Below, piece after piece: positions 13,529 through 43,620 of a stretch of 53,076 nucleotides of DNA. Below the pieces are notes generated by a model that was given only the letters and a program-made list of their open reading frames with translations, made no database searches and was not told the origin of the DNA. Positions within the stretch are counted from its first letter, which is position 1; every line of letters begins with the position of its first letter. Source of the stretch: a virus; the IMG/VR virus record IMGVR_UViG_3300048065_000485, positions 1 through 53,076 of that record; one strand, written 5' to 3'. The translations under genes were made by a program, and so were the position numbers.

Positions 13529-14485
13529 ATGAGAATATTTATAACAGGAGCAGACGGTTTTATAGGTCAGCACATGGTTGAACGATTAAAAGACAAACAC
13601 GAACTAGAATTTTTAAAAGAAGATTTAAGAGACCATGCCAAGGTTGCCATGCAGATCTCAACTTTTGATCCTGAGATAATTGTTCATTTGGCGGCAAGAA
13701 CAGAAGTACAGGACAGTTTTTATGAACAAATAACTTTTAGCGAAGTAAATTACGTTGGTACTGTAAATTTAATTGAAATTGCGGCAACACTACCTAATTT
13801 GAAAAATTTTGTATTTGCAAGTACAATGGAAGTATATGGTTGGCAACCTATAAGTGATTTGATTAGAGACGGAAAAGAAGAAGGAATAATTGCATTTAAT
13901 GAAGCAACACCTCCGAATCCAAATGCCCCCTACGCCGTTGCAAAGTATGGCTGTGAAAAATACTTAGAGTATGCTCATAGAAGTTATGGATTACCTTTTA
14001 CTGCTATTAGACAAACAAATGCATACGGTAGAAAGGACAATGACTTTTTTGTAACAGAACAAATTATTACACAAATGTTAAAAAATCCAGATGAGATTAA
14101 CTTAGGATATGGCGAGCCATACAGAAACTTTATTTACATTGATGATTTATTAGATGCATGGGAAACAGTAATAACAAATCCTGATAAGTGTGCTGGTGAA
14201 ATATTCTGTATAGGACCAGACAATGCAATTAAAATAAAGGACTATGTGCAACTCATTGCAGATAAACTTGAATGGAAAGGTCATGTAAATTGGAATACTA
14301 AACCTCCAAGACCAGGTGAAATTTATTTACTTAATAGTACTAATCATAAAATTACAACAAGATTAGGTTGGTTCCCTAAAGTAGAATTAAGTGAAGGACT
14401 AGATAGAACTATTGCTGTCTGGAAAGATGTTTTAGAAAATAATTTGCCACATAATCAGGACAGAAGATTTTCTAAAGGAAAATAA
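13529..14485 (+). CDS. NAD-dependent nucleotide-sugar epimerase/dehydratase (extended SDR)
   Basis: 318 residues. An N-terminal Rossmann motif GADGFIG (G7, G10, G13), VHLAARTEVQ, S/T in FASTMEVYG, the catalytic pair Y135/K139 (PYAVAKYG), then RQTNAYG and NFIYIDDLLDAW identify an extended SDR acting on NDP-sugars. It would oxidise at C4 and epimerise or dehydrate the sugar. Complete length for the family. It gives the cassette a sugar-nucleotide branch. AAGGAA precedes the ATG; the next gene follows in TAATG. Confidence 0.9.
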   Translation: MRIFITGADGFIGQHMVERLKDKHELEFLKEDLRDHAKVAMQISTFDPEIIVHLAARTEVQDSFYEQITFSEVNYVGTVNLIEIAATLPNLKNFVFASTMEVYGWQPISDLIRDGKEEGIIAFNEATPPNPNAPYAVAKYGCEKYLEYAHRSYGLPFTAIRQTNAYGRKDNDFFVTEQIITQMLKNPDEINLGYGEPYRNFIYIDDLLDAWETVITNPDKCAGEIFCIGPDNAIKIKDYVQLIADKLEWKGHVNWNTKPPRPGEIYLLNSTNHKITTRLGWFPKVELSEGLDRTIAVWKDVLENNLPHNQDRRFSKGK

Positions 14486-16341
14486 TGTTTAACATTACTT
14501 TAGTTCAGCCTAATTTTCAGACTGGGCCTAAGCATCTTAATAGTTATTATTTGCCTTATAGTGTTGGTTCCTTATGGAGTTATTTACTACAACATTCTCA
14601 AATAGAAGAAAATTATCAAGTAGATAATTGGATATTTAGACGAGAAACATTACAAGATGTAGTAGATAGATGTAAAAATACAGATATAGTTTTTATAAGT
14701 TTATACATTTGGAATAAAAATTATTGCCTTATGTTAGGTAAAATTTTAAAAGAAGCCTATCCAAATATTAAAATTATTTTAGGCGGCCCTGAAGTACCTC
14801 ATAGAAATCCAAATTTTTTAAAAGACAATGATTATATTGATTCTATAGTAATCGGAGAAGGCGAGTTAGCAGTATTAGATATACTTACTGCTTATTTAGA
14901 TGAAAAACCCTTAGAGCAAGTGTATGAATACGAGAGGATAAAGGATTTAAACTTACCTAGTCCTTATACACTAGGATTGTTTGACGATCTTTTAAAACAA
15001 CACCCAGATATAGAATGGGTTCCAACATTAGAAACAGATAGAGGATGCCCTTACAGTTGTACTTTTTGTGATTGGGGAAGTGCCACAGCAAGTAAAATGT
15101 ATAAATTATATGACGATAGAATACTTGCAGATCTTCAATGGGTAGCAGATAATAAATTACCTTACCTAGCATTAACATCTAGTAATTTTGGAATCTTTAA
15201 GGATAGAGATTTGATGATAACAGATATGATTGTTAAAACAACTAAAGAAACAGGTTACCCAAAAGGCATTAGTGTAAGTTATGCAAAAAACAGTAATGAT
15301 ACTGTATTAGAAATTGTTAAAAAATTTATAGATGTGAATATACAAACAGGAATAACTTTGAGTTTACAAACAACAACTGAAGAAGTTTTAGAGAATATTA
15401 AACGTAAAAATATGAAAATTAATTCTATTGATGAAATCATAGGATCTGCAAAAGAAAAAAATGTTCCTGCCCTAACAGAATTAATATTAGGCATGCCAGG
15501 TGAAACTGTGGAATCATGGAAGTCTACTTTAGAACAAATATTAATAAATGAAATACCAACATTAGATGTTTACTTTTTACAACTATTAGTAAACTCTCCA
15601 ATGTATGTAAAACAAATACAAGAATATGATTTAAAAACATTTTATGCATATGACTTTTTCTATGGTGTACAGAACGAAAAATTTGAATACGATAAAAAAC
15701 ATAAGATATCGGAATCTATAGAAGTTATAAAAAGCACAAATACAATATCAGAAAAAGAAATGGCAGATGTATCTTTGTTTACTGTTTTTGTATTAGGATT
15801 TCAAATGTTTGGATTATCAAATATTATGTCTACTCATTTAAATAAAACACAAGGATTGTCTTATATAAAGTTCTATGAAGGTCTATACGAATATCTTATT
15901 GAAAACGATACTAATATTAATATATGGCTAGAAAAGTTACAAAAGGGTTTTATAGATTGGAAAAAAACAGGTTATATGGATACAAACATAGATGGAGTAC
16001 ATATAGAAGGTTGGAAATTTTTCCATTCCTTAATGCCAATCATTCAACAGAATAATTTAGTATCACATTATATAGATCTTGTTGCAGATTATTCTAAACA
16101 ATTTACAACATCTGATATTATAGAAGATTTTGTAAAAGTATCAAATTTACAAATTAAACAATTTGACTCACAAATACACGAATCTCTCCAGGTTACAGTC
16201 AAAAGTAACCTTTTTCCTGCAAATTTAATTATTTCTGATAGATACGGAGACTACTTGGCAGAAAAAGAAGAACACTTAGATATGCTCTTTTTTGGAAGAC
16301 GTAGAGGATGGCACCTTAATAAAATAAGTCTTGACAAATAA
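14485..16341 (+). CDS. Radical SAM enzyme with N-terminal cobalamin-binding-like domain
   Basis: 618 residues. Residues ~1-160 form a B12-binding-like Rossmann domain (LVQPNFQTGP, YYLPYSVGSLWSYL, IILGGPEVPHRN, IGEGE) without the DxHxxG base ligand, as usual for the radical SAM subgroup. The iron-sulphur motif CxxxCxxC is C188-C192-C195 (GCPYSCTFCDWG). ELILGMPGET is a typical later strand. The C-terminal ~200 residues are unassigned. It should cleave SAM to a 5'-deoxyadenosyl radical, doing methylation or rearrangement at unreactive carbon. The phage also carries a SAM synthetase at 41960. TAATG coupling to the epimerase. Confidence 0.88.
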   Translation: MFNITLVQPNFQTGPKHLNSYYLPYSVGSLWSYLLQHSQIEENYQVDNWIFRRETLQDVVDRCKNTDIVFISLYIWNKNYCLMLGKILKEAYPNIKIILGGPEVPHRNPNFLKDNDYIDSIVIGEGELAVLDILTAYLDEKPLEQVYEYERIKDLNLPSPYTLGLFDDLLKQHPDIEWVPTLETDRGCPYSCTFCDWGSATASKMYKLYDDRILADLQWVADNKLPYLALTSSNFGIFKDRDLMITDMIVKTTKETGYPKGISVSYAKNSNDTVLEIVKKFIDVNIQTGITLSLQTTTEEVLENIKRKNMKINSIDEIIGSAKEKNVPALTELILGMPGETVESWKSTLEQILINEIPTLDVYFLQLLVNSPMYVKQIQEYDLKTFYAYDFFYGVQNEKFEYDKKHKISESIEVIKSTNTISEKEMADVSLFTVFVLGFQMFGLSNIMSTHLNKTQGLSYIKFYEGLYEYLIENDTNINIWLEKLQKGFIDWKKTGYMDTNIDGVHIEGWKFFHSLMPIIQQNNLVSHYIDLVADYSKQFTTSDIIEDFVKVSNLQIKQFDSQIHESLQVTVKSNLFPANLIISDRYGDYLAEKEEHLDMLFFGRRRGWHLNKISLDK

Positions 16342-35236: not shown

Positions 35237-35271
35237 TATATAGTAAGTTTAATTAATCCGTGGGAGGAAAT

Positions 35272-36303
35272 ATGCAAAACTTTGTAAAAATTAAAAAAGG
35301 TACTTACCGTAATGCACCTATTAAAGATGCGGTATTCCCAGTAGTAAAACAATTAACCTTTGGAAAGAAAGGTGCTTTTGTTACTGTTGATGGTAGTTCT
35401 TTAATGGGACCAAATGCTAAAAGAGTTAGAATTTTAGTTGACTCACCACTTAGTGTTGAACCTGCTAGTAAAGAAGATTATCAATCTACAATGCCAGTCA
35501 AGAAGACTAAAAAGAAAAAAGAAACGCAACAACAGGCAATGGATAGAATTGCTGGAAGGTTTGCTGTTTTAGATCAAATGACTGATGCAGTTGCAAATGG
35601 TACAGTAAGAGGACTTATAGTAAGTGGCCCTCCAGGAGTTGGTAAAAGTTTTGGTGTAGAGACTATACTTGATGAATACGACTCAATGACAAAACTGTCA
35701 GGACAACCTCCAAGAACAGAAGTTGTAAAAGGTTCAATGACACCAATTGGACTCTACCAGACTCTATACAATAATTCAAACAAAGGTGACATACTTGTAT
35801 TTGATGACTGTGATAGCATTTTGTTTGATGAGGTATGTTTGAACATGTTGAAGGCTGTTTTGGACTCTGGTAAAAAGAGAACAATTAGTTGGAAAGCAGA
35901 ATCACAGGCTTTAAGAAGAGAAGGCATTCCTGATAGGTTTGAATTCTCAGGTGGTGTAATTTTTATTACTAATGTAAACTTTGAAAATGTTAGAAGTAAG
36001 AAAATACAAGATCACTTAGAAGCATTAATGAGTAGATGTCATTACATTGATCTTGGAATGGATACTACTAGTGATAAGTTTATTAGAATTAATCAAATTA
36101 TTAGAGACGGTATGTTGAAATCATATGGCTTTAGTAAAGAGTTTGAAAAGGAAATAGTAGACTTTATGGTTTTGAAAAGTGCTAGACTTAGGGAACTTAG
36201 TTTAAGAATGGTACTTAAAATTGCTGACTTGGCCAAGATGGATTTCGATAATTGGAAACAATTGGCAGAGTCAACTTGCATGAGGAGACTGATCGATAAG
36301 TAG
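35272..36303 (+). CDS. AAA+ ATPase of T4-like marine phages
   Basis: ATG 35272 is used (GGGAGG upstream); the GTG at 35260 is part of the ribosome site. 343 residues. An N-terminal ~90-residue domain with a Lys-rich linker (KKTKKKKE), then Walker A G119-S126 (GPPGVGKS), Walker B with D178/D179 (ILVFDDCDS), sensor 1 N in VIFITNVNF and an Arg-rich EALMSRCHYIDLG that may hold the arginine finger. C-terminal lid helices (LRELSLRMVLKIADLA). It may remodel a replication, packaging or capsid complex. Not the clamp loader gp44 by its motifs. Own promoter; followed by a double terminator. Confidence 0.82.
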   Translation: MQNFVKIKKGTYRNAPIKDAVFPVVKQLTFGKKGAFVTVDGSSLMGPNAKRVRILVDSPLSVEPASKEDYQSTMPVKKTKKKKETQQQAMDRIAGRFAVLDQMTDAVANGTVRGLIVSGPPGVGKSFGVETILDEYDSMTKLSGQPPRTEVVKGSMTPIGLYQTLYNNSNKGDILVFDDCDSILFDEVCLNMLKAVLDSGKKRTISWKAESQALRREGIPDRFEFSGGVIFITNVNFENVRSKKIQDHLEALMSRCHYIDLGMDTTSDKFIRINQIIRDGMLKSYGFSKEFEKEIVDFMVLKSARLRELSLRMVLKIADLAKMDFDNWKQLAESTCMRRLIDK

Positions 36304-36321
36304 GTCTCCCATGTTCCCCCT

Positions 36322-36351
36322 AGTGTTCAAAACCCTCCCACTTTGAACACT
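36322..36351 (+). terminator. Perfect 10-bp hairpin, first of a tandem terminator
   Basis: AGTGTTCAAA (36322-36331) pairs with TTTGAACACT (36342-36351) around a C-rich loop; a short T run follows. It lies just upstream of a stronger terminator. Confidence 0.6.
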
Positions 36352-36356
36352 TTTAG

Positions 36357-36390
36357 AAACCCTCAATTAGTTGGGGGTTTCTTCTTTTTT
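36357..36390 (+). terminator. Rho-independent terminator
   Basis: AAACCCTCAA pairs with TTGGGGGTTT (one T-G wobble) around loop TTAG, followed by CTTCTTTTTT. It closes the AAA+ transcript before the receptor's own promoter. Confidence 0.9.
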
Positions 36391-36394
36391 ATGC

Positions 36395-36422
36395 TTGACA
36401 AAACATATTGTTCGTGTATAAT
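36395..36422 (+). promoter_or_regulatory. Sigma70-type promoter of the TonB-receptor gene
   Basis: TTGACA (36395-36400), 16 bp, TATAAT (36417-36422). Predicted +1 near 36429; leader of ~39 nt with ACGGAG before ATG 36468. It starts right after the terminator. Confidence 0.88.
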
Positions 36423-36467
36423 TAATACTAAAACTATTATGACTAAATGGTCACGGAGAATTTAAAA

Positions 36468-38153
36468 ATGGAAAGATTCCTTTATGAGAATATAATTAAA
36501 ATTGCAATCGTTATTACTTTACCACTTTGGACAGCCTATGCACTTGCTGAAGATGTAGAAGAAGTAATTGTTATTGCACAAGAAGTTAAGGCAACAGAAA
36601 CAGATTCACTTACTGATACAAAATTAATTACCAGTATTATGCCTGATGTTACTTACATAGCAGGAGGCTATGGAGGCAATGTTTTATTCAGAGAGCGAGG
36701 TACACAATCTGTACATACAGCAGTTTACAGAAATGGTATACCGCAAAATACACCTGGTTCAGGTTGGTATGACTTTGCACATGATATTGTATCAGGGGAA
36801 GATGTTAAAGTAATTAGCGGAGCCAATAGTGTAATGTATGGCTCAGGAAGTATTGGTGGTACAGTTTTAATAAAAGACTTAATTAAGAAAGGTGTAACAG
36901 GCAGACTTGGTAATCAGTCACATAGATATATTTCAGTAGCACCTACAAACTGGATGCAAATTACAGATTTTTCTGTAAAACAAAATGCTAGAAATGATAA
37001 CGAAGAAGAAGACACTTATGAAAATACCAGTGCAAAAATTATTGCAGATGCAGGTGACTTTACATTGTATGTTACTTCAACTGATTATGCTTATGATTAT
37101 GATAATTGCTTCACAGCAGAGTTTACACAAAGTAATGATTGCTTACAGGACGGTGAAAGATTTACAGTAAGTATTAGAAATGAATACTTTACTATAGGTA
37201 GATCAGAAGATAAAGCAGAATATTTTACTGAGGGTGTTAGTACATATCAAAATGAAAGTAGCAGAGACTTTTTTAGAGTAGGCGATACAGTAAAGTTATC
37301 TAACTTATTGGATGTTACTTATGGTGTTGATGGTAGCAAAGATCAATACATGGAACAAGAACAAGACAACTACGGTGCCTTTTTAAGTGTAAATGCCAAG
37401 TTCGCCTTAGAATATAACTTTGGTATTAGATACGGAAACAATGATCAAAATGCTGTAAGATTAGGTATTGCAAAAGATCAGTTCTTTTTTAATGTAGGAA
37501 CTAGTTATAGGAGACCTAACTTATATGAACTTTATGGTGATGCCTTTGTAGATCCTAATGAAGAATTACTTCCAGAGGAAGGAGTTGGATATGAAATAGG
37601 ATTTGGTGCCATCAGTATTTTTAAATACGAATTTGAAGAAGCAATAGAATATACTGCACCATATTCAGAAACAGTATTGGTTGCACCTGCTACATTTGAT
37701 GCAGAAGGAAATCTTTTAACTGAACAAATAAATGAAGAAATTTATTATAATGCAAAATATAATAATTCAGGTGCTTATGATACTCAGGGTATTAGATTTG
37801 CTAATACATGGGGACCTTTTAGTATAAATCTAAAAGTAAATGACACAGATCAAACTAGAATACCAGAGTATGTTGGTGTTATTACATGGGATCAGATGTT
37901 TAAAGATATAAATTATAAAGTACAATATTCAGGGCAGTTTGATAGAGCACCTGGACCTTATGATGTTCTTTCAGAAGAGCAAGAATTTTTAGAAGATCTC
38001 ACAAAACTTAGTGTGTATATTACAAAAAGATTTACTAATGGAATGAATTTAAACTTTGCAATAGACAACATTACTGATGAGGAAGTTGAAGTGTTACCAT
38101 ACTACAATAACCAAGGCAGACAAATTAACTTGACAATACAATACAATTGGTAG
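36468..38153 (+). CDS. TonB-dependent outer-membrane receptor
   Basis: The start at 36468 has ACGGAG 8-10 nt upstream; the ATG at 36447 lacks one. 561 residues. Signal peptide 1-27 (cleavage ALA/ED), then a TonB-box-like EVIVIA at 32-37, plug domain ~45-145 (VLFRERGTQ, VYRNGIPQNTPGSGW, VKVISGANSVMYGSGSIGG) and a ~400-residue beta-barrel of alternating strands ending INLTIQYNW with the aromatic C-terminal residue needed for outer-membrane insertion. It would import a scarce ligand (iron complex, cobalamin or similar) using host TonB, or mask/replace a host receptor. Size is at the small end (BtuB-like). Phage-encoded TonB receptors are, to my knowledge, essentially unreported. Own promoter and terminator insulation. 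Confidence 0.88.
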   Translation: MERFLYENIIKIAIVITLPLWTAYALAEDVEEVIVIAQEVKATETDSLTDTKLITSIMPDVTYIAGGYGGNVLFRERGTQSVHTAVYRNGIPQNTPGSGWYDFAHDIVSGEDVKVISGANSVMYGSGSIGGTVLIKDLIKKGVTGRLGNQSHRYISVAPTNWMQITDFSVKQNARNDNEEEDTYENTSAKIIADAGDFTLYVTSTDYAYDYDNCFTAEFTQSNDCLQDGERFTVSIRNEYFTIGRSEDKAEYFTEGVSTYQNESSRDFFRVGDTVKLSNLLDVTYGVDGSKDQYMEQEQDNYGAFLSVNAKFALEYNFGIRYGNNDQNAVRLGIAKDQFFFNVGTSYRRPNLYELYGDAFVDPNEELLPEEGVGYEIGFGAISIFKYEFEEAIEYTAPYSETVLVAPATFDAEGNLLTEQINEEIYYNAKYNNSGAYDTQGIRFANTWGPFSINLKVNDTDQTRIPEYVGVITWDQMFKDINYKVQYSGQFDRAPGPYDVLSEEQEFLEDLTKLSVYITKRFTNGMNLNFAIDNITDEEVEVLPYYNNQGRQINLTIQYNW

Positions 38154-38159
38154 TATAAT
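38130..38159 (+). promoter_or_regulatory. Sigma70-type promoter inside the receptor 3' end, near-leaderless
   Basis: TTGACA (38130-38135), 18 bp, TATAAT (38154-38159). Predicted +1 at about 38165-38166, on the uvsW ATG. Confidence 0.7.
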
Positions 38160-38164
38160 AACTT

Positions 38165-39622
38165 ATGGCAAAATGTGTTTTAGAAATTAGAGACGAAGTA
38201 AATGTTCGTTTCACAGGACTTGATGTAAAAGCAAGACGTAAAATTTCTGATGCTTGTAAATATTTCCTTCCTTACGCATATCATATGCCTGCTTACAAAT
38301 TAGGTAGATGGGACGGTTGTGTTAGGTACTGTGATATAGGTGGCAGAACATATTTTCATTTATTAGATAAACTTGTTCCTATTATTACTGAAGAAGGTTA
38401 TGATATTGAAATAAAAGATATGCGTAAAGCATGGGAATTTAAGTTTGATCAAGTAACGCAATCAAGTTATGAGCATGTTGCTTGGCCTAAGAAACATCCT
38501 GCAGAAGGACAACCTGTAATATTAAGGGATTATCAAGTAGATATTGTTAATAGATTTTTAGAAAATACACAATGTTTACAAGAGATTGCCACAGGTGCAG
38601 GTAAAACAATTATAACTGCTGTATTAAGTCACAAGTGTGAGCCCTATGGTAGAACAATAGTTATAGTTCCTAATAAAGATTTGGTTGTACAAACAGAAAA
38701 AGACTATAAGAATTTAGGATTAGATGTGGGTGTTTTATATGGTGATAGAAAAGAATATGATAAAACGCATACAATTTGTACTTGGCAAAGTTTAAGTATA
38801 TTAGAAAAGAAAAGTAAAAACTATGAAGCAGACTTTCCTATAGATGAATTCTTGGAAGACGTTGCGTGTATTATGGTAGACGAAGTACATAAGGCTAAAG
38901 CAGACGTTTTAAGAAATTTACTTAGTGGAGTATTTGCTCATGTTCCAATTAGATGGGGATTAACAGGAACCATTCCTAAAGATGAATATGAAGCAGTAGG
39001 TTGTACTTGTAGTTTAGGTCCTGTAATTGGAAAAATGAGTAGTAAAGAATTACAAGATATGGGTGTATTAGCAGATTTAGATATCAGTATTTTACAATTA
39101 CAAGATGGTATGATTGAATTTGGGGGATATGCACAAGAACTTAAATGGCTCGTAACAGACCCTAAAAGAATTGAACAGTTATCTAAAATAATTAATGGAT
39201 TTGCAGAAAATGGAAATACATTAGTTCTTATAGATAGAATTAAAACAGGAGAAATGTTAGCAGAAGATAATCCAGATTGGGTATTTGTATCAGGTTCTAT
39301 GAAGCAAAAAGATAGACAAGATAATTATGATGACGTTTCAGAAATGGACAATAAAGTTATTGTTGCTACATATGGCGTAGCGGCGGTAGGAATAAACATT
39401 CCTAGGATCTTTAATTTAATATTAATAGAGCCAGGAAAAAGTTTTGTGAGAGTAATACAAAGTATTGGAAGAGGTATTAGAAAGGCACAGGACAAAGATT
39501 ACGTTAATGTTGTAGACATTACTAGTAATTTAAAATATAGTAAAAGGCATTTAACAAAAAGAAAGGCCTTTTATCGAGAGCAGAATTTTAGACATTCAGT
39601 AACTAAGGTGGAATATAAATGA
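38165..39622 (+). CDS. uvsW: RNA-DNA / DNA helicase UvsW
   Basis: 485 residues. An N-terminal ~100-residue DNA-binding domain (PAYKLGRWDGCVRYCDIGGRTYFHLL) as in T4 UvsW; Walker A A142-T148 (ATGAGKT) preceded by the Q-motif-like ILRDYQVDIVNRFL; DEVH box at D239 (MVDEVHKAKA); GLTGTIPK (motif III); and motif VI QSIGRGIRKA near the C-terminus. It unwinds branched DNA and R-loops and is part of the switch from origin to recombination replication. The promoter's predicted +1 coincides with the ATG. ATGA overlap with the next gene. Confidence 0.95.
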   Translation: MAKCVLEIRDEVNVRFTGLDVKARRKISDACKYFLPYAYHMPAYKLGRWDGCVRYCDIGGRTYFHLLDKLVPIITEEGYDIEIKDMRKAWEFKFDQVTQSSYEHVAWPKKHPAEGQPVILRDYQVDIVNRFLENTQCLQEIATGAGKTIITAVLSHKCEPYGRTIVIVPNKDLVVQTEKDYKNLGLDVGVLYGDRKEYDKTHTICTWQSLSILEKKSKNYEADFPIDEFLEDVACIMVDEVHKAKADVLRNLLSGVFAHVPIRWGLTGTIPKDEYEAVGCTCSLGPVIGKMSSKELQDMGVLADLDISILQLQDGMIEFGGYAQELKWLVTDPKRIEQLSKIINGFAENGNTLVLIDRIKTGEMLAEDNPDWVFVSGSMKQKDRQDNYDDVSEMDNKVIVATYGVAAVGINIPRIFNLILIEPGKSFVRVIQSIGRGIRKAQDKDYVNVVDITSNLKYSKRHLTKRKAFYREQNFRHSVTKVEYK

Positions 39623-40899: not shown

Positions 40900-41706
40900 A
40901 TGAGACGAGTATTAATATGCGGCCTGCCAGGTTCAGGCAAAACGACATTGGCAAAAAGACTATGTGAAATTATAGATAATGCTGATTGGTATAATGCTGA
41001 TGATATCAGAGAAAAATTTAATGATTGGGACTTCTCACCTGAAGGTAGAGAGCGTCAAATGAAACGTATGCAGGACTATGTAAGAAAAAGTTGTGCAAAG
41101 GGTAGATATGGAATTGCAGATTTTGTTTGCCCAACACATGAATTACAAGAAGCATTTATGCCTGAGTATGTAATCTTTATGGATACTATTAAAGAAGGTA
41201 GATTCGAGGATACTAACAAGATATTTGAAAGTCCTATCGATCAAGCATCTTATGAAGTTGATGCACATATTACTGAAGACGAATGGTGGACAGAGGAATC
41301 TATAGATCAGTGGGCTAGATTAATTGCTGTTGATTTAAAGGATTGGGAGTTTCAACCTAAACAGCCTGTTACACAAATGCTTGGAAGATTTCAACCTTGG
41401 CATGAAGGACATCAAAAATTATTTGAAAGAGCATTGGCAAAACATGGCCAAGTTGCGGTGATGGTTAGAGATATGCCTATTACACAAGACAACCCATGGC
41501 AAGTAGATGATATTTGTAAAAATATAGAAATAGAACTGGCTGAATTTGCTGGTAAGTTTAGAGTTTATAGTGTTCCTAACATTATGAATATTACTTATGG
41601 TAGAGGAGTAGGCTATAAAATTGAAGAAGAAGTTTTAGATGAGGAAACACAAAAAATTAGTGCAACCAAAATCAGAGAACAAATGAGAAAGGATGGAGAA
41701 CTATAA
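40900..41706 (+). CDS. P-loop kinase fused to HxGH nucleotidyltransferase
   Basis: 268 residues, two domains. Residues 1-~150: P-loop kinase of the APS-kinase/polynucleotide-kinase type (GLPGSGKTT at 8-16, WYNADDIREKFNDWDFSPEGR, like APS kinase's N-AD-R segment). Residues ~155-268: nucleotidyltransferase with HEGH at 168-171 (GRFQPWHEGH) and ISATKIR at 253-259, the pair that binds ATP phosphates in NMN-adenylyltransferase-like enzymes. NadR has the same two activities in the opposite order, so an NAD-related role (nicotinamide riboside to NAD) is possible; a sulphate/APS role is the other option. Neighbours are MetK and APRT. Confidence 0.75.
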   Translation: MRRVLICGLPGSGKTTLAKRLCEIIDNADWYNADDIREKFNDWDFSPEGRERQMKRMQDYVRKSCAKGRYGIADFVCPTHELQEAFMPEYVIFMDTIKEGRFEDTNKIFESPIDQASYEVDAHITEDEWWTEESIDQWARLIAVDLKDWEFQPKQPVTQMLGRFQPWHEGHQKLFERALAKHGQVAVMVRDMPITQDNPWQVDDICKNIEIELAEFAGKFRVYSVPNIMNITYGRGVGYKIEEEVLDEETQKISATKIREQMRKDGEL

Positions 41707-41959: not shown

Positions 41960-43078
41960 ATGTATCAATTTACAAGTGAAAGTGTCAGCGAAGGACATCC
42001 AGATAAAGTTGCTGATTTAATATCAGATCACATAGCACAATGGTTAATTAATCATAATTCTAATAATAGAGCCGCAGTAGAAACATTAGTTACTACAAAT
42101 ACTGTAATAATAGCAGGAGAATATAAAACTGATAGAGAAGAAGATGTAGAGGAATCAGTTAGAGGTATTGTAATTGATACTGTCAAGCAACTAGGTTATG
42201 AACAAGAAGGATTTCATTGGGACAAATTAAATATAGAATATTACTTACATGGGCAAAGTTCAGATATAGCATTAGGTACTGATAACTTTGGTGCAGGTGA
42301 TCAAGGTATTATGTTTGGATATGCAAATAGGGAAACAGAAAATTACATGCCTTTTGCAATATCGTATTCGCATAAGATATTACAAGAACTATCTAATAGG
42401 AGAAAATCTAATTCAAAATATAAAGGTATAATTTTACCTGACAGTAAGTGTCAGTTGACAGTAAATTATGGAGCACCAAATACACCTTTAGATATTAACA
42501 ATGTCGTAGTCAGTACTCAACATCATGCAGAAGCGACACAACAGCAGGTCGAAGATTTAGTAAGGGAAGTTGTAAAAGATGTTGTTCCTAAAGAGTTTTT
42601 AACAGAAAAAACAAATTACCAAATTAATCCTACAGGCAGATTTGTTATTGGTGGACCTGACGGAGATACAGGTTTAACAGGAAGAAAAATTGTTGTAGAT
42701 ACTTATGGTGGATATGCTCCGCATGGCGGTGGTGCTTTTTCAGGTAAGGATTTTACAAAAGTAGATAGAAGTGCGGCATATATGGCTAGATGGATAGCAA
42801 AGAATATTGTTCATAAATATGATTTACAAGAATGTTTAGTACAATTAAGTTATGTGATAGGAATAGAGGAACCGTCATCATTGTTAATATATGCAAATGG
42901 TGAACTTAGATTAGATTTAATGAACTTAATTAGAAAGGAAGTTGATTTAACACCTAAAGGAATTATAGAATGGTTAGGATTATTAAATGTAATATTACCT
43001 GACACCACAAATTACGGACATTTTGGTAAAGAACCTACTGGCAATAGTTTAATAACCTGGGAAGAATATACATTATGA
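41960..43078 (+). CDS. metK: S-adenosylmethionine synthetase
   Basis: 372 residues (E. coli MetK 384). Signature blocks present in order: FTSESVSEGHPDK (4-16, ATP/metal), LHGQSSDIALG, GAGDQGIMFGYA, PTGRFVIGGPDGDTGLTGRK, VDTYGGYAPHGGGAFSGKD and KVDRSAAYMARWIAKN. The enzyme joins methionine and ATP into SAM. It appears complete. AAGGA precedes the ATG, and apt overlaps its stop (ATGA). In this phage SAM would feed the radical SAM enzyme at 14485 and any methyltransferases. A full metK in a phage is unusual. Confidence 0.96.
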   Translation: MYQFTSESVSEGHPDKVADLISDHIAQWLINHNSNNRAAVETLVTTNTVIIAGEYKTDREEDVEESVRGIVIDTVKQLGYEQEGFHWDKLNIEYYLHGQSSDIALGTDNFGAGDQGIMFGYANRETENYMPFAISYSHKILQELSNRRKSNSKYKGIILPDSKCQLTVNYGAPNTPLDINNVVVSTQHHAEATQQQVEDLVREVVKDVVPKEFLTEKTNYQINPTGRFVIGGPDGDTGLTGRKIVVDTYGGYAPHGGGAFSGKDFTKVDRSAAYMARWIAKNIVHKYDLQECLVQLSYVIGIEEPSSLLIYANGELRLDLMNLIRKEVDLTPKGIIEWLGLLNVILPDTTNYGHFGKEPTGNSLITWEEYTL

Positions 43079-43620
43079 TTTTAAATTTTAAAGACTCAAT
43101 AAGAACAGTACCAGACTTTCCTATAGAAGGAATACAGTTCAGGGACATTACAAGCATGTTAGAAAGCCCACATGCGTTCAACAAAGCATGTGTTGACCTT
43201 ACTAAAGTATGTATGCAATTTGATGCTACTAAAATTGTTGCAATAGAAAGTAGAGGATTTATTTTTGGCTCTCCTATAGCAAGAGATATGGAATTACCCT
43301 TAATATTAGCAAGGAAACCAGGTAAGTTACCCAACCCCACCTATCAAAGAAGTTATAAACTAGAGTATGGAGAATCAACTTTACATATTCAACGAAATTC
43401 TGATATAAACTCTAAAGATAAAATTGTTATAGTAGATGACTTAATTGCTACAGGCGGAACAGCAAAGGCATTAGCAAGTTTGATAGCACAATGTTGGAAA
43501 GTACCTAAAGAAAATATTTTAATTTTAGCCGTTATAGACTTGCCCGATTTAGAAGGAAGTGCTATAATAGAGAAAGAAGGATATAATGTTGAGACACTAA
43601 TTGAATTTGAAGGAAAATAA
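43075..43620 (+). CDS. apt: Adenine phosphoribosyltransferase
   Basis: 181 residues, full family length. N-terminal FPIEGIQFRDITSMLESPHAF, IVAIESRGFIFGSPIARDMELPLILARKPGKLPNP, and the PRPP loop IVIVDDLIATGGTA at ~118-131. It makes AMP from adenine and PRPP. The ATGA overlap with metK suggests one unit: adenine released when SAM by-products are cleaved could be salvaged to AMP. That link is inference. TAATG junction to the next gene. Confidence 0.93.
   Translation: MILNFKDSIRTVPDFPIEGIQFRDITSMLESPHAFNKACVDLTKVCMQFDATKIVAIESRGFIFGSPIARDMELPLILARKPGKLPNPTYQRSYKLEYGESTLHIQRNSDINSKDKIVIVDDLIATGGTAKALASLIAQCWKVPKENILILAVIDLPDLEGSAIIEKEGYNVETLIEFEGK

Follow-up and report, generated by a model that had tools for sequence, protein, structure and literature searches.

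TonB-dependent receptors have been annotated in the genomes of phages. The megaphage Mar_Mega_1 carries a SusC-like receptor that was described as serving carbohydrate uptake (PMC9723777), and the pelagiphage Skadi-1 carries a TonB-dependent receptor that was described as pointing to the receptor used for adsorption (PMC10504331). A separate line of work concerns vitamin B12. Most open-ocean bacteria and phytoplankton reportedly rely on B12 made by others, and virioplankton with a class II ribonucleotide reductase are B12-dependent; enhanced B12 uptake was only suggested, in 2023 (PMC10547690). Searches of open-access journal articles (few subscription titles, no bioRxiv preprints) turned up no account of a BtuB-like family in phages.

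Here we analyse a 53,076-nt stretch of viral DNA (the window; IMG/VR record IMGVR_UViG_3300048065_000485) in which a TonB-dependent receptor had been predicted from sequence. The gene probably encodes a phage-specific, BtuB-like receptor whose ligand is cobalamin or a corrinoid related to it, and which raises uptake during infection.

An intact receptor gene in a phage genome

The open reading frame at 36447–38153, listed with 568 aa, is a real and intact TonB-dependent receptor gene (Table 1). Translation most likely starts at the ATG at 36468 rather than at 36447, because it has a Shine-Dalgarno GGAG upstream and is the point from which most relatives align. The protein has the parts named in the original prediction: a signal peptide (residues 1–27) whose hydrophobic leader and cleavage site, MERFLYENIIKIAIVITLPLWTAYALA/ED, were judged by eye; a TonB box (31–38, EEVIVIAQ); a compact plug (about 41–141) with its motifs; and a predicted 22-strand barrel (142–561) whose final residue is W. 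The Pfam Plug domain PF07715 matches at 5.1e-10 (40.2 bits, cut-off 23.9), and its model matches 37 of 37 relatives, with the Pfam barrel model matching by sequence in only one of the 37. The EE-V pattern of the TonB box recurs in 76 of 86 relatives. The family is under purifying selection, with dN/dS of 0.08–0.18.

The two ends of the protein vary among relatives. About 40 of them (for example L094 and L116) begin with an unusual leader with an acidic start, MNxFDKNFHxNxSPLY, and others carry a MEKFLYDNIVKIA-type leader; the motif occurs on no other gene of the relatives' loci that we examined. The C-terminal residue is non-aromatic in 33 of 86 relatives, and a deeper clade (for example L342, L355 and L384) ends in K, P, R or another such residue. 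Outer-membrane barrels usually end with an aromatic residue, and these non-aromatic termini may matter for membrane insertion.

Table 1. Features of the receptor locus and of related genes in the window
Feature	Position	Strand	Basis
B12-binding and radical-SAM enzyme, TokK/KedN5 methylcobalamin C-methyltransferase type	14485–16341	+	Domains, NCBIfam, PDB
AAA ATPase (phrog_1250), conserved left neighbour	35260–36303	+	Synteny, phrog match
Hairpin, 10-bp stem, first of pair behind AAA gene	36322–36351	+	RNA fold
Intrinsic terminator, 12-bp stem (36355–36382) and T-rich tail	36355–36390	+	Terminator scan, RNA fold
Sigma70-type promoter, TTGACA-N16-TATAAT	36395–36422	+	12/12 matches
Shine-Dalgarno GGAG, for start at 36468	36455–36458	+	Sequence
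BtuB-like TonB-dependent receptor, 561 aa	36468–38153	+	Pfam, NCBIfam, PDB profile, predicted fold, alignment of relatives
Loop 2 (EL2) acidic motif RNDNxExDxY, residues 175–184	36990–37019	+	Alignment of 86 relatives
Loop 3 (EL3) motif YDYDNC...SNDC, residues 209–225	37092–37142	+	Alignment of 86 relatives
Second promoter, in receptor gene's 3' end across last codons, placed for downstream helicase	38130–38159	+	12/12
UvsW-type DNA helicase, conserved right neighbour	38165–39622	+	Synteny, domain match
MetK, methionine adenosyltransferase (SAM supply)	41960–43078	+	TIGR01034 407.8 bits, cut-off 309.4
Adenine phosphoribosyltransferase (Apt), adenine salvage	43075–43620	+	NF002636 180 bits, cut-off 125; PDB Apt 7e-41

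BtuB is the nearest kin in predicted fold and in sequence

Structure prediction gave the plug and 22-strand barrel that had been anticipated. AlphaFold2 modelled both domains from 86 diverse relatives with a pLDDT of 89.8 and a pTM of 0.85, the strands being counted by hand from the predicted strand list; a shallow alignment of 25 similar relatives reached a pLDDT of only 37. VIA-align placed Escherichia coli BtuB first (Z 37.4 over 500 residues, 3.0 Å, about 18% identity), then Bacteroides B12 transporters at Z 32–34, then haem receptors including ChuA at Z 31.6. The first 15 matches are B12 transporters without exception, and other receptor families appear at lower Z in a ranking that by its nature cannot exclude them. 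Foldseek also returned BtuB as the best match (5.6e-20).

Sequence comparison gave the same order. A PDB search with the family profile found six sequences of BtuB, between 6e-10 and 4e-9, followed by the haem receptor ShuA at 0.09. Among NCBIfam models, TIGR01779 (TonB-B12) fits the window protein best (3.1e-9, residues 65–560) and matches 25 of 37 relatives. The window protein scores 35.9 bits, far under the equivalog cut-off of 599.7, and we therefore call the receptor BtuB-like rather than BtuB.

A BtuB-like scaffold might instead serve the uptake of another scarce ligand, such as haem, a siderophore, nucleosides or some other metabolite. Haem receptors are next-nearest both by fold and among sequence models, and purine-salvage genes (Apt and a nucleosidase-like gene) lie nearby. 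B12 transporters are nevertheless clearly ahead in sequence and fold, and the nearest bacterial relatives of the receptor are controlled by cobalamin riboswitches. We consider a different ligand unlikely.

The closest bacterial receptors lie behind cobalamin riboswitches

We ran a protein profile built from phage sequences alone over 398 Pseudomonadota genomes. The first five of the best bacterial loci that we examined all had a cobalamin riboswitch upstream (5/5), and with a profile from a larger alignment RF00174 or AdoCbl-II lay upstream of 22 of the best 30 bacterial loci. Some of the eight loci without a riboswitch matched at the C-terminus only, so their upstream region may fall outside the sequence examined. 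The control comprised 30 receptor loci chosen by plug score from four of these genomes, holding 7, 20, 42 and 83 plug matches. Five of these loci had a riboswitch, namely the top match of the phage profile in each of the four genomes and its second match in one; the remaining 25 had none. One control locus, L516, is a TonB-dependent receptor with a TPP riboswitch, perhaps thiamine-related.

The best bacterial relative, a 613-aa protein (locus L285; 8.8e-22, about 23% identity), is encoded behind a cobalamin riboswitch and is itself BtuB-like (TIGR01779, 1.7e-91). It shares the phage-invariant motifs of the extracellular loops EL2 and EL3, including YDNC...NDC, the EL2 motif being similar. Neither the window nor any of 19 phage records yielded a cobalamin riboswitch; such a riboswitch upstream of BtuB is common in bacteria, not universal. 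The original prediction had named iron or cobalamin as the imported nutrient. Judged from these homologies, in which BtuB is nearest by sequence and fold and the bacterial kin are riboswitch-linked, cobalamin is strongly favoured over iron.

Conserved extracellular loops suggest a fixed small ligand

Conservation in the phage family peaks in the loops that face outward. The EL2 residues D177, N178, E180, D182 and Y184 and the EL3 cysteines C214 and C225 are identical in 86 of 86 relatives. In a conservation map drawn for the phage family alone, entropy is 0.9–1.4 bits in EL2, EL3, EL7, EL9 and EL10, against 1.74 in strands and 2.1 in periplasmic turns; EL8 is the only highly variable one among the long loops. 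The invariant acidic motifs are placed in loops that appear to correspond to the outer loops of BtuB with its calcium and cobalamin contact residues.

These loops bear on a second function that had been proposed, in which altered receptor display blocks superinfection. TonB-dependent receptors, BtuB included, are commonly used by phages and colicins, and a phage receptor that displaced or mimicked the host's could stop other phages from adsorbing or injecting. The structural matches include a BtuB-colicin complex and FhuA with a bound phage T5 protein, and the receptor evolves faster than its helicase neighbour (mean pairwise identity 52% versus 81%). Superinfection exclusion is disfavoured, however, because conservation is concentrated in the extracellular ligand loops, with EL2, EL3, EL7, EL9 and EL10 varying less than the barrel. 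The receptor has also retained a TonB box, a plug and purifying selection, none of which a passive decoy needs. A fixed small ligand appears to account for the loop pattern better than a decoy does, and we judge exclusion improbable.

A long-held gene of large phages

A widespread group of very large bacterial viruses, known mainly from environmental DNA, carries this receptor. Homologues in other phages, which the original prediction had proposed to look for, are abundant: the largest of five viral-contig scans yielded at least 214 contigs with confirmed viral relatives, 37–98% identical to the window protein. The INPHARED phage collection gave no match to it. Receptor-bearing contigs reach 340 kb, and the window's terminase resembles jumbo-phage terminases (for example PA5oct, at 57% identity), so the window is probably a piece of a much larger genome.

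The position of the gene is conserved. In most of 86 relatives the receptor is flanked by the AAA ATPase and the UvsW-type helicase, with a gap to the helicase of usually 4–39 nt. Such synteny in dozens of contigs rules out a contig chimeric with host DNA, an artefact that had been raised as a possible refutation. Starting from the helicase, we found the receptor adjoining in 69 of 78 testable contigs. The other nine have empty sites, with an AAA-to-helicase spacer of 105–522 nt, and the gene is therefore dispensable. On a helicase tree rooted at its midpoint, contigs with empty sites branch from within receptor-bearing ones at least three times, so that loss is a simpler account than repeated gain. 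This count leaves out the helicase loci L582 and L601, which have too little upstream sequence; with both scored as receptor-bearing the tree gives four changes.

The receptor also occurs beyond this lineage. Eleven relatives in another phage lineage have receptors 49–70% identical to the window's. Two example contigs, of 92.8 and 90.6 kb, have almost nothing else in common with the window, and a transfer of the receptor between phage lineages is therefore probable. There it follows an MTA/SAH-nucleosidase-like gene by 5–17 nt (for example L017, 7379–7924). The lineage with this gene pair has T4-type baseplate-like genes.

Transcription signals surround the gene. The consensus sigma70 promoter that had been predicted is present without a mismatch. 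The proposed insulation by a double terminator held in part: two hairpins lie upstream and together fold at −26 kcal/mol (z −4.7, 36310–36392), but the terminator scan picks out the second alone; the first does not by itself fit the scan's pattern. The terminator arm GGGGGTTTC is seen again in close relatives. Of 86 non-redundant relatives, 39 have a promoter with 11–12 of 12 matches in the 110 nt before the gene, whereas 0.1% of shuffled upstream sequences do; the relatives without one fall mainly into two groups, the deeper clade and the lineage in which the receptor directly follows another gene. Towards its 3' end the receptor gene contains the second 12/12 promoter, and 38 of 86 relatives have a 12/12 match in that region; the window's terminator scan found no terminator-like site between receptor and helicase. 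Promoters of the receptor's type also precede gp32, the AAA ATPase, the helicase and the primase.

The description of the gene as an autonomous moron is not supported, because this promoter type also serves the neighbouring replication genes. A moron of that kind would have come from a host only lately, would bring a promoter and a terminator of its own and would have no tie to the phage's programme. The promoter behind hairpins fits that picture, as do the empty sites in some relatives. Against it, the gene is neither sporadic nor recently gained: most testable contigs carry it next to the helicase, and the empty sites represent at least three separate losses. The GC content of its region is the same as that of the surroundings, and no close bacterial homologue appeared, a conserved-peptide genome scan returning none at all and the Pseudomonadota profile none that was close. 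We regard an autonomous moron as very improbable. The lineage appears to have held the receptor for a long time as part of its replication region, losing it now and then.

Genes for cobalamin, SAM and adenine in the same genomes

The window encodes a possible cobalamin consumer. Its TokK/KedN5-like enzyme, adjoined by a sugar-nucleotide dehydratase-like gene (13529–14485), contains PF02310 (6e-10) and PF04055 (8e-15), matches the KedN5 model at 3.9e-64, which is under that model's cut-off, and matches TokK in the PDB at 1.2e-70. The enzyme may thus consume cobalamin in the receptor's own phage, and might carry out B12-dependent methylation of a glycan or another phage target. A class II ribonucleotide reductase was rejected as a consumer, since the relatives' reductase is under the cut-off and looks class I. 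B12-binding domains were found in 3 of 19 records, although most of the 19 are fragments centred on the receptor.

Genes of SAM and adenine metabolism accompany the receptor. In the window MetK is followed directly by adenine phosphoribosyltransferase, and in many relatives an MTA/SAH-nucleosidase-like gene lies some 5.4 kb downstream of the point where the receptor gene begins. A 340-kb relative combines the same receptor locus with MetK, a phosphoribosyltransferase adjoining a nucleosidase-like gene and a B12 radical-SAM protein. By association only, the genes of the window and of this relative would fit a cobalamin-SAM-adenine theme. A further window protein (40900–41706) has an N-terminal kinase-like and a C-terminal nucleotidyltransferase-like domain (phrog_10255) and is possibly NAD-related. 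MetK was rejected as a host indicator: its nearest match is a Marinimicrobia single cell at 54%, followed by mixed Alphaproteobacteria and Clostridia.

A model for cobalamin uptake during infection

We infer that cobalamin is the ligand, that expression is early, that uptake shows a net gain and that the gain is linked to SAM. The receptor would be transcribed from a sigma70 promoter like those of the phage replication genes, then exported and inserted by the host's Sec and BAM machinery. Host TonB-ExbBD would power it through the TonB box; none of the 19 phage records encodes a TonB. The infected cell would import more cobalamin, and the extra cobalamin would feed methionine and SAM metabolism. 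In the window's phage it would also supply the phage-encoded B12-dependent radical-SAM methyltransferase. Points that weigh against this model are the low TIGR01779 score, the negative riboswitch search in phage records, the few B12-binding domains among the 19 records, the class I look of the relatives' reductase, the gene's dispensability and the non-aromatic C-termini.

A more elaborate proposal, which we put forward tentatively and consider rather doubtful, is a jumbo-phage cobalamin-to-SAM circuit. In it the receptor would capture corrinoid, MetK would make SAM, the TokK-like enzyme would spend both, and the nucleosidase and adenine phosphoribosyltransferase would recycle adenosyl by-products. 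If such a circuit exists, its methyl groups might end up on phage DNA or on surface sugars, and external B12 would set infection yield.

Comparison with known systems

The receptors form a conserved family that is specific to phages; among characterised proteins, B12 importers are its closest relatives. Jumbo phages appear to have kept this outer-membrane transporter beside their replication genes over long evolutionary times, not as a passing passenger. Viral steering of vitamin uptake thereby becomes directly testable with one gene.

Among phages, Mar_Mega_1 and Skadi-1 resemble the window in that their genomes contain TonB-dependent receptors, whereas we saw in their accounts neither a ligand test nor a conserved family (PMC9723777, PMC10504331). 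A putative cobalamin dependence is a likeness to the B12-dependent virioplankton; the present phages differ in that they carry a candidate gene for the uptake and in that the relatives' reductase looks class I. The riboswitch-controlled Pseudomonadota receptors, represented by L285, have EL2 and EL3 motifs in common with the phage receptor, but L285 is bacterial, longer at 613 aa, under a cobalamin riboswitch and only about 23% identical. BtuB of E. coli and Bacteroides shares the plug, the 22-strand barrel and a TonB box near the mature N-terminus, and appears to have acidic outer loops in places corresponding to the phage receptor's. Unlike BtuB, the phage receptor has a compact plug and an invariant EL3 cysteine pair, lacks a riboswitch and scores below the TIGR01779 equivalog cut-off, and it is encoded by a phage under its own sigma70-type promoter.
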